Source: Sphingomonas brevis
GTDB lineage: Bacteria > Pseudomonadota > Alphaproteobacteria > Sphingomonadales > Sphingomonadaceae
Assembly (NCBI RefSeq): GCF_023516505.1
Contig: NZ_JAMGBB010000001.1
Location: forward strand, 1,116,001 to 1,180,000
Direction: 5' to 3'
Length of the DNA: 64,000 nt
Below the pieces are notes generated by a model that saw only the letters and a list, made by a program, of their open reading frames with translations, was not told where the DNA came from and did not search any database. Below, one piece after another: positions 21,834 through 59,890 of this stretch. The position numbers and the translations under genes are program-made. Each line of letters starts with the position of its first letter. The first letter of the stretch is position 1.

Positions 21834-21910
21834 GCACCCGTAGCTCAGCTGGATAGAGCGCTGCCCTCCGAAGGCAGAGGCCACAGGTTCGAATCCTGTC
21901 GGGTGCGCCA
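21834..21910 (+). tRNA. tRNA-Arg, anticodon CCG
   Basis: 77-base cloverleaf with acceptor arms GCACCCG / CGGGTGC, D-loop AGCTCAGCTGGATAGAGC, anticodon stem CTGCC/GGCAG around loop CTCCGAA (anticodon CCG, codon CGG), T-arm CAGGTTCGAATCCTG, and an encoded CCA end. Its 3' half is overlapped antisense by the end of the serine recombinase gene, the mark of an element integrated at the tRNA 3' end. Confidence 0.97.
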
Positions 21911-23545
21911 TTCCCGTGCAAAACTGGGCACTCCTTTGCGAGTGCCCGCCGCGGTCGCGACGACGGCCCGCTCCAGCGCCTTGCGGGATCCGCGAATGCG
22001 AATCTGCTCGTCCTCAACAAGGACCTGATCGATCAGCAGCCTGACGTAGGCCTGGCGCAGTGTCGGGTTGTCGCCGCGAAGCCCCTCGCGAAGCAGCGAA
22101 CCGAACCGGCCAATAATCTCCGGCGTCACCGCCCGCTGGTTTGGCTTCAGCTGACGCTCCAGCGCCTCGATATCGCCGGTGAGCGACGCAATTCGCCCGC
22201 GGTGATGGGTCAAGCGCTCGGCAAAGTCGCGATCGGTAGGCGAAGCGAGCCCCTGCTCAACTAGCTCATAGAGGCGGTTGAGCGCTCCCATGCTGTTGGT
22301 CTTCTCGGTCCGCAACGAGGCAAGCTCATCACGGCGCTTGGCATCAGAGATGTCACTTTTCTCCAGGAAAGCCTCCATCAGCTTCGGAAGGCGGTCCGCG
22401 TGCAACACGCGTTGTTCAACGGCGTCGAGCACGAGGCCGTCCAGCTTCTCCATCCTGATGGAACGGCCTGGACATGCTGTCTCGCCTCGAGTGGCACGGC
22501 GTGAGCAGGCATAATAGCGGTAACGCCCTGACTTACCGGTTCGGATTGTCAGTGCGCCTTGGCAGCCGGTGCAACCGCATTTGGCGATGCCGGTCAGCAA
22601 TGTTGGCCCCGAGACGATGCGCGCCGGAGTCTGTCTGGGATTGCGCTCCGCCATTCGTGTCTGAACGGTCTGGAAAGTTTGCTCGTCGATGATCGGCGGG
22701 ACTTCCATTGGAACCCATTGCTCGCGCGGACGGCGCTCCCCGGTGCGTGAGTCCGTGCGATTGAAATAATGGGTCCCGGCGTAGGTGGTGCGGCGAAGCA
22801 CCGCATCGACGTTGGAGACGTGAAACGGCTTGCCACGGTAGCGGTAGCTCCGGCTGTTCAGCCACGAGGCGATCTTCTTGATCCCGAGCGGTCCGCTCTC
22901 ACCGTCCCCTTCAAGATAGAGCGAGAAGATGCGGCGAACGAGCGGTGCCTCGGTCTCATCGACCGCCAGAACCTTCTTGTCCTTGTCCCCTCGCCGTTCG
23001 GCGATCAGCACCTTGTAGCCGAGCGGAGGCCTCGAGCCGTTCCAGAAGCCCTGCTTGGCGTTCGACACCATGGAGCGCCTCACGTGCTTGGCAGTCTCGG
23101 CGCTTTGATATTCGTCGAACTTGCTGAGGATCGAGCGGACGAGATCGCCCGTCGCCCCCTCCCCTACGTCCTGAGTAATCGAGACCAGCTCGACCTTCGC
23201 CTTGGCGAGCTTGCGCCGGTAGCGCTCGAACTCGAACTGATCCCGGAAGAAGCGGCTGAAGCTGTGGACGATCACCAGATCATAGGGGCGGTCGCGAGCA
23301 ATCGCTGCCTCGACCATCGACTGGAACTGTGGCCGATTGTCGTCGGTCGCCGATGCTCCAGGCTCGCGGTACACGTCGACCAGCAAGATGCCCCGCCCCT
23401 CGCAATAGGCGGTGATCGCCGCGATCTGGTCTGCAAGGCTGGTCTCGTGCTCAGCCTGCCGAGTAGTGGACACGCGGACATAGGCTGCTGCTCGCGGAGC
23501 GACTTGCGGAAACCCAGGTACGGACGCGGGGAGAGATGAACCCAT
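21845..23545 (-). CDS. Large serine site-specific recombinase (integrase)
   Basis: About 566 residues. The N-terminal resolvase domain has the nucleophilic serine in [11 protein letters not shown] and the arginine-rich [18 protein letters not shown] recombinase domain follows (GYKVL to [12 protein letters not shown]), then a zinc ribbon (CGCTGC, then YYACSRR and ACPG) and a helical coiled-coil C-terminal part. The preferred start is the ATG at 23543-23545, which has GAGGAG before it; the ATG at 23557, overlapping the upstream stop, is the alternative. The last 21 residues (from the [10 protein letters not shown] segment) are read antisense through the tRNA-Arg gene, so the present C-terminus was created by integration. 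It probably integrates and excises the neighbouring DNA. Confidence 0.9.
21897..21912 (+). other. Candidate attL core at the tRNA-Arg 3' end
   Basis: TGTCGGGTGCGCCATT, the last 14 bases of the tRNA plus two. It matches 15 of 16 bases at 59825-59840. It directly abuts the recombinase gene, as expected for the left attachment site of an integrated element. Confidence 0.5.
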
Positions 23546-23553
23546 GATACTCC

Positions 23554-23787
23554 TCATCCAAACAGGGCGAGAATCTGTCGGCCCAGATACCGGTCAAGCA
23601 ACCTTACTTCATCGTCCGTGACCTCAAGGCAAGTCGGCAGGTGCTCGATTGATGGGTTATCGTTGGCCGGTGAACCAGACCGGGGCAGCTCGGCTTTGCC
23701 GGGAACAGCCGCGCAGGCATCGTCATTGGCCGCATCCCTGGCAGGACTGGCGCATCTTGCCTGCCGCTTCGAACCGCGATTTGCCAT
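23554..23787 (-). CDS. Small protein upstream of the recombinase, unknown function
   Basis: 77 residues: a basic, Ala/Arg-rich, probably disordered N-terminal 45 residues, then an acidic-helical end (CLEVTDDEVRLLDRYLGRQILALF). A good GGAGGG ribosome site precedes the ATG. Its stop overlaps the first possible start of the recombinase, so the two are likely coupled. Small basic genes beside serine integrases sometimes encode directionality factors, but nothing here proves that. Confidence 0.55.
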   Translation of the reverse strand: MANRGSKRQARCASPARDAANDDACAAVPGKAELPRSGSPANDNPSIEHLPTCLEVTDDEVRLLDRYLGRQILALFG

Positions 23788-24006
23788 CGGAAACCCTCCA
23801 TCGTGAGGGTTGACTCAGGTGACATGAAAATCGGCGAGCGCAACAGGGTCTTGTTGTAACTTCGCCCTAGCCGACATCACGAGGCCCCGAGTGCGGCGTG
23901 ACATGTCGCGCTGAGTCCGAATGAGCGACCGAATTGCGCCCTTCTCGGCCGTTCGTCTGGGCTGCGCAGCGTCCCTAAAGCGGCCGTTGGTTCACTTTGC
24001 TGGCTT

Positions 24007-24035
24007 ATGACCGATTTCGACCCATTGCGGTCATT
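24007..24035 (-). repeat. Palindromic repeat copy 1
   Basis: ATGACC...GGTCATT arms around TTTCGACCCATT. First copy of a dispersed element whose plus-orientation form is AATGACCGC - AATGGGTGGAAA - GCGGTCATT. It lies just before the lipoprotein-like gene. Confidence 0.75.
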
Positions 24036-24060
24036 GAGAGCTGGGCGCATCGTTGTAGTG

Positions 24061-58606: not shown

Positions 58607-58639
58607 TGGTTAAGTTTTGCACAGTTACTCGAAAATCAA

Positions 58640-58653
58640 TTGACTCAGATCAT
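58640..58653. promoter_or_regulatory. Fnr-type box between nnrS and the cytochrome gene
   Basis: TTGAC-TCAG-ATCAT, eight of ten consensus bases. It is 34 bases before the nnrS start and 48 bases before the divergent cytochrome gene, so it may serve both. Confidence 0.6.
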
Positions 58654-58700
58654 AGCCGCCAAAGCCAAGTGCATTTAACACTAATACATTCGGAGGACGT

Positions 58701-59420
58701 ATGAGCAGCCCGGCTTCACAGATTGGAGAGCGACTAAGGGTTTGGGACCTTCCACTTAGGCTTTTCCATTGGATTCTGGTCATCGCCATCGCAATCGCAT
58801 TCCTATCCTCTGAGGAAGACAGCGGCCTGAATGATTGGCATGTACTTTCTGGATGGGTGGCGGCTACGCTTCTCATTTTCAGGCTAGTCTGGGGGTTCGT
58901 CGGCGGTGAGCACAGCCGGTTTGCCAATTTCCTCAACTTCAGCGGGATTAGGCATCATCTCAGAGGGTTTGTGCAGGGAAAAGTCGAACCCACAGTCGGT
59001 CATAATCCGCTAGGCGCCATCGCAGTCATCCTTTTGCTCCTGCTGGTGGCTGTAACCATCTGGAGCGGGGCATTTCTCGGCGAGGCGGGCGAGGATCTGC
59101 ACGAGGTCGTGGCTTGGACACTTCTCGCGCTGGTCGCCGTTCACGTGCTGGCCGTGGTGTTCACCTCTCTACTCTCACGAGAAAATCTGGTGAGAGCAAT
59201 GATTGATGGCACCAAACCTAAGCAGCGGCACCCGCTTGCAATGGACGCCAGGCGGCCTGGACCGATGGCATTTCTCCTCGGAGCAGCGGCCGTGACTGGG
59301 GCGCTTTACGCCATTCACATTTATGACCCTGACGCATTCACGCTTAGAACTGCCGAGTCCTTCGAGCATCGCTCTGGCGGCCAGATGACGGCGTCTGAAA
59401 TAACCAAGGCGGAGGACTGA
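58701..59420 (+). CDS. Cytochrome b561/Ni-hydrogenase b-type family protein
   Basis: 239 residues with four to five transmembrane helices. Heme-binding histidines are likely in LRLFHWILVIAIAIAF (helix 1), NDWHVLSGWVAATLLIF (helix 2), and DLHEVVAWTLLALVAVHVLAVVF (helix 4). HNPLGAIAVILLLLLV is the family GHNPLG segment. The C-terminal domain after helix 5 is polar and ends EITKAED. Members pass quinol electrons to diverse partners; no c-type cytochrome partner is adjacent. The Fnr-type box suggests anaerobic expression. Confidence 0.82.
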   Translation: MSSPASQIGERLRVWDLPLRLFHWILVIAIAIAFLSSEEDSGLNDWHVLSGWVAATLLIFRLVWGFVGGEHSRFANFLNFSGIRHHLRGFVQGKVEPTVGHNPLGAIAVILLLLLVAVTIWSGAFLGEAGEDLHEVVAWTLLALVAVHVLAVVFTSLLSRENLVRAMIDGTKPKQRHPLAMDARRPGPMAFLLGAAAVTGALYAIHIYDPDAFTLRTAESFEHRSGGQMTASEITKAED

Positions 59421-59456
59421 TCCCCTAGTTTCGTTGCGCGCTCGGCAATCATCCTA

Positions 59457-59696
59457 ATGGGCTTGGCAAGCATTCTTGCGTTCCCAGCCGATAGCCAAGT
59501 CAGCGATCATTCGAGCTACCATAATGCCTCGGTGGTCGAATCCATGATCGGCACGCCAAAATCCATCGCCGCTGAGCACCGTGAATTGCATGAGACGCTT
59601 GCGCGAGCGTCTGGCGAAGGCCGCAGGCTTGGGCTAGCCGCTCGGCAGTTGGAAAGAGCGTTGGCGCCGGTCTTTCCACCCATTGCCTGGCCCTAA
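59457..59696 (+). pseudogene. Fragment of a hemerythrin-like (HHE) protein
   Basis: Frame of 79 codons in which IAAEHRELHETLARASGEGRR then LGLAARQLERALAPVF matches the first helices of HHE cation-binding hemerythrin-like proteins, including the first His ligands. The frame then runs into FPPIAWP, coming from a degenerate repeat, exactly where a second iron-binding helix would be expected. So only the N-terminal third of the gene remains. It may be a remnant from insertion or rearrangement near the right boundary of the candidate island. Confidence 0.45.
59667..59691 (-). repeat. Partial palindromic repeat near the right island boundary
   Basis: GCCGGTCTTTCCACCCATTGCCTGG resembles the loop and one arm of the 24-31 kb repeat family. 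No copy was noticed in the left core region of the window. Confidence 0.4.
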
Positions 59697-59890
59697 AACC
59701 GAACGAACAGCCGCCTTCGATCATCGAAACCGTCGTGCGGTAACGATCGGGAAGGCCGCATTGCGGCCATTACTTGACTATCAGCACCGAAACTTCCCAA
59801 TGAGATGAGTGCCCATCATATTCATGTTGGGTGCGCCATTTTGCTTTTTTGTGCCGCGTGCGACCGTTCCTTTTTGGGAAGGTGTCCGAA
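59697..59890. other. Intergenic region before formate dehydrogenase
   Basis: Contains a short GC-rich stretch (GGCCGCATTGCGGCC, a palindrome at about 59756-59770), the candidate attR core, and a T-rich segment (ATTTTGCTTTTTTG). No gene is seen in it. Confidence 0.5.
59825..59840 (+). other. Candidate attR core
   Basis: TGTTGGGTGCGCCATT: 15 of 16 bases equal the tRNA-Arg terminus at 21897-21912, and 18 of 22 in a longer alignment. The following T-rich run resembles a tRNA terminator that has been separated from its gene. Confidence 0.45.

Follow-up and report, generated by a model that had tools for sequence, protein, structure and literature searches.

The tRNA-Arg(CCG) locus and the ends of the element

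We analysed a 64,000-nucleotide stretch of the Sphingomonas brevis genome (contig NZ_JAMGBB010000001.1), here called the window. It contains a tRNA-Arg(CCG) gene, a large serine recombinase gene (int) that reads into the 3' end of this tRNA, and a second copy of the tRNA end about 38 kb away; the segment between them, which includes a nitrate reductase (nar) module, is the putative integrative element considered here. A set of 71 congeneric genomes, labelled G000 to G070, was used for comparison, G000 being the genome that contains the window (2.59 Mb). The features at the two ends, including the predicted left and right attachment sites (attL and attR), are as follows.

21834..21910 (+): tRNA-Arg(CCG), the integration target, intact at the integrase end
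21845..23557 (-): large serine recombinase of 570 amino acids (aa), last codons antisense to the tRNA
21901..21910 (+): attL core GGGTGCGCCA, identical with the tRNA 3' end
21911..21933 (+): element arm of attL, TTCCCGTGCAAAACTGGGCACTC, with the dyad arm TGGGCACTC at 21925-21933
59770..59838 (-): displaced integrase tail, WRTQHEYDGHSSHWEVSVLIVK plus stop, continuing the integrase frame in the predicted circle
59807..59815 (+): dyad arm of attR, GAGTGCCCA
59829..59838 (+): attR core GGGTGCGCCA, the element end

The original prediction, made from the window alone, had described a serine recombinase reading into the tRNA, and this was borne out: the gene at 21845-23557 (minus strand) encodes a protein of about 570 aa that combines resolvase, recombinase and zinc-ribbon domains, and the stop codon of the gene falls within the tRNA. 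The C-terminal end of the integrated open reading frame (ORF) is thus encoded antisense in the tRNA. The tRNA 3' end was repeated at 59825-59840 with one mismatch in 16. In 200 order-2 Markov copies of the window, repeats of the tRNA end occurred with a mean of 0.0 (at most one mismatch) or 0.045 (at most two mismatches); the 15/16 repeat 38 kb away, also noted in that prediction, is beyond chance. The CCA ends lie at 21910 and 59838, so that the ends given earlier were right within two bases. The distance from CCA to CCA is 37,928 bp and encloses the nar module. With an intact tRNA at one end and a tRNA 3' fragment at the other, the segment has the structure of a tRNA island. Joining the two ends in silico gave the predicted circle site (attP) GAGTGCCCA TCATATTCATGT TGGGTGCGCCA TTCCCGTGCAAAAC TGGGCACTC, in which symmetric dyad arms of 9 bp flank the short core GGGTGCGCCA.

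The case for these ends is comparative: it rests on other genomes whose related elements share the arms, and no empty site contributes to it. When up to three mismatches were allowed, the far-side arm AGTGCCCATCATATTCATGTNNGGTGCGCCA was present in 7 of the 71 genomes (G000, G009, G012, G014, G023, G032 and G066), twice in G012, while the reversed control gave no match. All seven genomes carried a homologue or remnant of the window integrase with at least 62% identity. The integrase-side arm TTCCCGTGCAAAACTGGGCAC was conserved beside the tRNA in G000, G012, G023, G014, G066 and G009, and partially in G011 and G002. The far-side sequences of the related elements stopped matching directly after the tRNA CCA. 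In G032 the tRNA and the arm lie 24 kb apart on one contig, and the arm has GGGCGCGCCA where the tRNA has GGGTGCGCCA; this difference places the crossover in GCGCCA. G009, whose element lies in tRNA-Arg(TCT) with its two ends on different contigs, agreed with this position. In G014 the arm is 28.6 kb from its own tRNA-Arg on the same contig.

These results make it very probable that the segment is a 37.9-kb integrative element in tRNA-Arg(CCG), with its own serine recombinase, an attP within the integrase gene and the nar block as cargo. Several observations weigh against this interpretation. The integrase-side arm of G032 has diverged; in G066, as in G009, the element ends are on separate contigs; the G023 arm and one G012 arm are far from the tRNA-Arg site and, being remote from it, must be parts of other copies. 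The genus-wide scan of the 71 genomes found no match to the far-side arm pattern in G068, and no attR was found for the G017 and G027 elements. No circle junction of the element was seen. An exact empty site was not found, and the tRNA-Arg site of G050 lacks the gene that follows attR in the window. Among the ORFs run against Pfam, which did not include every small ORF, no relaxase, conjugation or phage gene was recognised. Nor was a recombination directionality factor (RDF) identified.

The integrase gene and its two alternative tails

The integrase frame crosses the predicted crossover point, and its end differs between the integrated form and the joined ends. Read at attR in the integrase frame from the tRNA CCA (TGG, encoding W), the sequence gave WRTQHEYDGHSSHWEVSVLIVK and then a stop, in other words W...GHSxHWE...stop, in frame. 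The same stop codon was found in seven of eight congeneric arms, the exception being one G012 arm, which continues; a degenerate arm in G011 stops there too. On this sequence comparison, attP appears to lie within the 3'-terminal part of the integrase gene, and insertion appears to swap the tail of the enzyme for a tRNA-antisense one.

Beyond the genus, the motif TTNCCARTGATNTGAGTGCCC (at most one mismatch) was detected in 39 of 396 sampled genomes of the order and in 16 of 84 genera; the control gave 0. The tail frame was examined at 30 of the 47 motif sites. At 25 of these 30 the distance between the G of GHS and the stop was 13 or 14 codons (mean 1.8 and maximum 7 among 2000 shuffles), and an in-frame W was present at 27. 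When tRNA-end repeats with the tail were sought in five more elements, the tail was found only in G016, an element in tRNA-Leu with a 44% identical integrase and the tail at 22.7 kb. For G005 and G051, the motif search also gave tail candidates on the contig that carries the integrase.

Tail sequences were also seen on plasmids. On the Sphingomonas parapaucimobilis plasmid NZ_CP155751.1 (L381, 3788-4087), the C terminus of a truncated integrase runs unbroken into ...KWCTQSDETGHSDCWEISVPRG; this remnant, annotated as a hypothetical protein, is a natural uncut half of the attP form. The Qipengyuania citrea plasmid NZ_CP098495.1 (L382, ~4001-4054) carries an attR-type tail, WRTRHESDGHSDYWETSVRRQM plus stop, and no integrase is annotated in the stretch shown.

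The conserved tail at attR might be merely a DNA arm of the attachment site that is not translated. It includes the dyad arm GAGTGCCC, and the variability of its three codon positions across the order was 0.32/0.31/0.35; the third position is no more variable than the others, which counts against a strong coding constraint. However, the tail stop lies outside the 21-base search motif and is kept far above the shuffled expectation, whereas the stops of the other frames are scattered, and the plasmid integrase remnant continues in frame into the tail and is annotated as a protein. We therefore consider an untranslated arm improbable and favour a tail that belongs to the integrase. Database searches did not retrieve the intact form. 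Among the best 120 of 2779 homologous proteins, 103 ended in a W..(D/E/G)S(N/K)-type tail, none ended in GHSxHW and none was a full-length integrase with the native tail. Two further protein-database searches (17 and 5 matches) listed no new full-length native-tail form, phage records gave no match for one, and on viral contigs the native tail was found at 0 of 33 loci with an integrase match of at least 40% identity, among 80 loci kept.

We propose that the large serine recombinase of the element inserts it at the 3' end of tRNA-Arg(CCG) by recombination within GCGCCA of the tRNA end. The attL product would have an intact tRNA and an integrase whose tail is replaced by tRNA antisense; the attR product would have the displaced native tail followed by the tRNA end. 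The GHSxHWE tail would thus belong to the integrase of the incoming circle, and integration would replace it. The ends, the shared arms, the two in-frame tails, the distribution and the non-monophyly can be read directly from the sequences, whereas the formation of the circle and the translation of both tails are predicted. By analogy with phage Mx8 and the rumA integrative and conjugative elements (ICEs) discussed below, the swap may change the activity or direction of the integrase, for example by making integration harder to reverse. Transcription from the tRNA gene would, moreover, oppose that of int. The nar block is read as cargo that has its own history in the genus; elements in at least two unrelated lineages carry it, and it is present at other loci without elements.

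The nar block, the flanks and the tRNA-Arg site

The genes between the two ends, and the first gene outside attR, are listed below.

24007..28014: ORFs without assigned function, guanine-plus-cytosine (GC) content ~55%, adjoining the integrase
28469..30484 (+): M28 family peptidase
31429..33420 (+): M3 family peptidase
33895..34410 (+): DUF1993 protein
34571..35932 (-): hemN
36096..36698 (+): moaE
36699..37235 (+): MoCF_biosynth domain protein, moaB-like
36893..37708 (+): ORF with moaC in its second half
37705..38892 (+): moeA
38889..39578 (-): mobA
39479..40219 (-): TauE/SafE-type permease
40272..41588 (+): Alginate_exp-type outer membrane protein
41603..42340 (-): Crp/Fnr-type regulator
43441..44352 (-): PpiC-type peptidyl-prolyl isomerase
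44349..45140 (-): narI
45137..45835 (-): narJ
45832..47361 (-): narH
47358..51218 (-): narG
51169..53922 (-): NarK-type transporter, one 917-aa ORF that contains two MFS halves
53994..55004 (-): moaA
55079..57298 (-): nrdJ, B12-dependent ribonucleotide reductase
57377..58606 (-): nnrS
58701..59420 (+): cytochrome b561-type protein
59891..61108 (+): NAD-dependent formate dehydrogenase (FDH), outside attR, an accessory neighbour

The respiratory nitrate reductase module is complete, with narG, narH and narI above the NCBIfam cut-offs and narJ present. The nar, moa, hemN, nrdJ, nnrS and fnr-like genes that had been placed inside the island were identified there by Pfam or NCBIfam (nnrS by Pfam only); the fnr-like protein scored below the cut-offs of the Fnr, FnrL and FixK models. 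A candidate 843-aa gene at 38889-41420 was rejected, as mobA and the TauE-type gene occupy that span. The ORFs at 24007-34410 had no homologue among the other loci compared, and five of those at 24007-28014 also had no Pfam match. For 25554-26279 and 27562-28014, PADLOC gave matches so weak that they were disregarded.

The GC content is ~55-58% at 24-33 kb and 61-69% beyond. This break would fit a different arrangement, in which a low-GC integrase island (21911 to ~34.4 kb) lies beside an older resident nar locus and the repeat at 59825 is an unrelated relic. The same arrangement would also fit G011, which has nar at the same place, only a remnant of the integrase and none of the 24-36 kb genes, and the presence of nar at other loci without an element. 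However, the far-side arm beside nar matches the arms of the G014 and G032 elements, both of which lack narH and have the arm at the above 28.6 and 24 kb from their own tRNA-Arg on the same contig. Moreover, the reading frame of this arm continues the integrase gene, and in G012 nar likewise lies between integrase and arm. No second arm was found near 34 kb, and a short integrase-only island ending there was rejected. We regard this alternative as highly improbable and retain the 37.9-kb element with nar inside it.

A nitrate trait special to this lineage was not supported; nar is common in the genus. A narH search matched 16 of the 71 genomes, and 14 remained once G054 and G056, with short matches of ferredoxin-like kind, had been discounted. 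The nar genes lie in the tRNA-Arg element in three genomes (G000, G011 and G012) and at other loci in ten; in G050, an 11th genome without placement in the element, the orthologous nar genes occupy a short contig other than that of its tRNA-Arg. The original prediction had held that nar at another locus without the recombinase would speak against it. Such loci do carry the module in 10 genomes, and the ends of the element are unaffected by them. The gene order of the block from moaE to nnrS was kept across the nar carriers, with losses: the G003 and G034 maps lack nnrS, and the G003 map has no detected moeA or moaC (the G050 map ends at a contig end, and G036 is covered in part only). The GHSxHWE tail peptide was absent from 11 of the 11 nar neighbourhoods without an element that were examined. 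As a separate observation, in the G040 and G034 nar loci (L142 and L153) the same block of some five ORFs borders nar, on opposite sides in the two genomes, as if nar had been inverted or inserted twice beside the block.

A phylogenetic analysis rejected a single clade of the element-borne nar copies (G000, G011, G012) with p 0.0005 in the approximately unbiased (AU) test; the tested grouping was set by location, after a FastTree of the same data had been seen, and G050 fills 20% of the columns. The nar genes of the sister species G050 and the relative G040 grouped with those of G000 at full support, yet lie outside tRNA-Arg. Mapped onto a core tree of 27 genomes, a selection that covers all 14 nar carriers, nar presence required 9 changes, as many as shuffled labels did (mean 9.2). 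The non-monophyly of the element-borne copies indicates that nar entered such elements on at least two occasions or left them repeatedly. G014 and G032 have element arms and no narH in the genome, indicating that cargo varies between elements. From these sequence comparisons, nar is found mostly outside the tRNA-Arg element, and its presence in the element arose repeatedly or was lost repeatedly.

The history originally proposed was that the nar set entered this lineage together with the element as one mobile unit. The enclosure of nar in G000, G011 and G012 and its patchy occurrence in the genus are compatible with such an entry, but the G050 and G040 copies and the AU result speak against it, and we consider it unlikely. 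The idea of one mobile unit holds for the DNA now present, a site-specific element that encloses nar, and is not supported as an account of how nar arrived; the carrier and its nar block have separate histories.

The flanks also differed from what had been supposed. FDH had been taken as a housekeeping flank on the right. The FDH search matched 70 of the 71 genomes, and only the 9 matches at ~80% identity were taken as orthologues; with orthologues in only 9 of 71 genomes, FDH is an accessory neighbour, and its role as a housekeeping flank was rejected. The gap from tRNA-Arg to pdhC, measured in 11 genomes, was 144 bp in G050, 3.5-7.7 kb in G019, G009, G070, G069, G043, G034 and G038, 29.8 kb in G011, 39.2 kb in G000 and 46.4 kb in G012. 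G050, which the core tree places as the sister species, thus has a near-empty tRNA-Arg site, with no FDH there; the predicted empty site, joining the tRNA to position 59841 and FDH, was not found among the relatives. The T-rich run after attR had been explained as the lost terminator of the tRNA. This was not substantiated: no such run follows tRNA-Arg in G050, and other relatives (e.g. G020) have other, sometimes short T-rich, sequences. The tRNA-Arg(CCG) 3' end is an integration hotspot between phaR and 2-oxoacid dehydrogenase genes. Second copies of the tRNA-Arg 3' end were observed ~100 bp (G038, L073 near 11062) and ~1 kb (G043, L070 near 4449) past the tRNA, a sign of other insertions.

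Related integrases and comparison with known systems

Related integrases are widespread. At 68 of 80 alphaproteobacterial loci (the best 80 of 540), the integrase ORF reads into or through an antisense tRNA, the targets being tRNA-Arg (53), tRNA-Ser (11) and tRNA-Glu (4). The integrases at the 80 loci showed ~43-50% identity, and by record title the loci come from sphingomonads, Rhizobiales, Caulobacter and Rhodobacter relatives, and others. Of the 12 loci that do not read into a tRNA, eight have a DSN-type tail, one runs off the contig end and three show neither. A protein search also matched the same integrase in S. limnosediminicola, S. swuensis and S. daechungensis. A related integrase in G068 (L159 near 11107; 75%) lies at a site without a called tRNA and ends in ARDVRLH, as does the protein P0044; the G068 case indicates that other targets exist.

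More tentatively, and with the chances slightly against it, we suggest that a large family of alphaproteobacterial serine integrases is specialised for tRNA 3' ends and has attP within its own gene, that integration would exchange the conserved GHSxHWE tail for one read in antisense from the host tRNA, that the integrase protein would thereby record its own state, that the change of tail would bias it to the integrated state, that excision would restore the tail, and that such elements may pick up cargo such as nar repeatedly. If tail exchange occurs, it would explain the DSNL-type endings of many annotated 'recombinase family proteins'. The boundaries of an island with nitrate-respiration genes are now precise, and the data point to a widespread family of serine integrases that insert at tRNA genes.

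Among known systems, anaerobic growth on nitrate has been shown for the sphingomonad Sphingopyxis granuli TFA, which has narGHJI and a nitrate/nitrite transporter (PMC4741004). The block in the window adds moa/moe/mob, hemN, nrdJ and nnrS, and no tRNA-Arg serine-integrase element is mentioned in the excerpts of that paper. The Islander paper stated in 2015 that only tyrosine integrases were known at tRNA genes, and that the Mx8 and SSV integrases extend across attP (PMC4383910). The present element resembles the Islander tRNA islands in having the tRNA restored at one end, a fragment at the other and the integrase at the tRNA. The tRNA-gene insertions shown in the excerpts of a review on integrative mobilizable elements are by tyrosine recombinases (PMC5704250). 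In a TIGER/Islander note, tRNA or tmRNA genes hold 33.8% of the islands, a figure that its excerpts do not split by integrase family (PMC12424338).

An attachment site within an integrase gene has been described before. In Myxococcus phage Mx8, attP lies in the integrase gene, and the new C terminus after integration is reported to make the integrase less active (PMC4701971) or of changed specificity (PMC6070905). Mx8 has a tyrosine integrase whose 112-residue tail is replaced by 13 residues, whereas the integrase here is a serine recombinase with tails of similar length, ~19 for 18 residues after WRT. Streptococcal ICEs in rumA share with our element a serine integrase with an internal att site, and a change of activity was suggested for them (PMC4701971); their target is the rumA gene, in contrast to the tRNA 3' ends, the antisense-tRNA tail and the order-wide conserved native tail found here. 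In the open-access literature consulted we found no report of this integrase family or of its tail swap, although one may exist. The tail swap as such is therefore already known; what is new, to the extent of our searches, is a family of serine integrases that target tRNA genes and have a conserved native tail.

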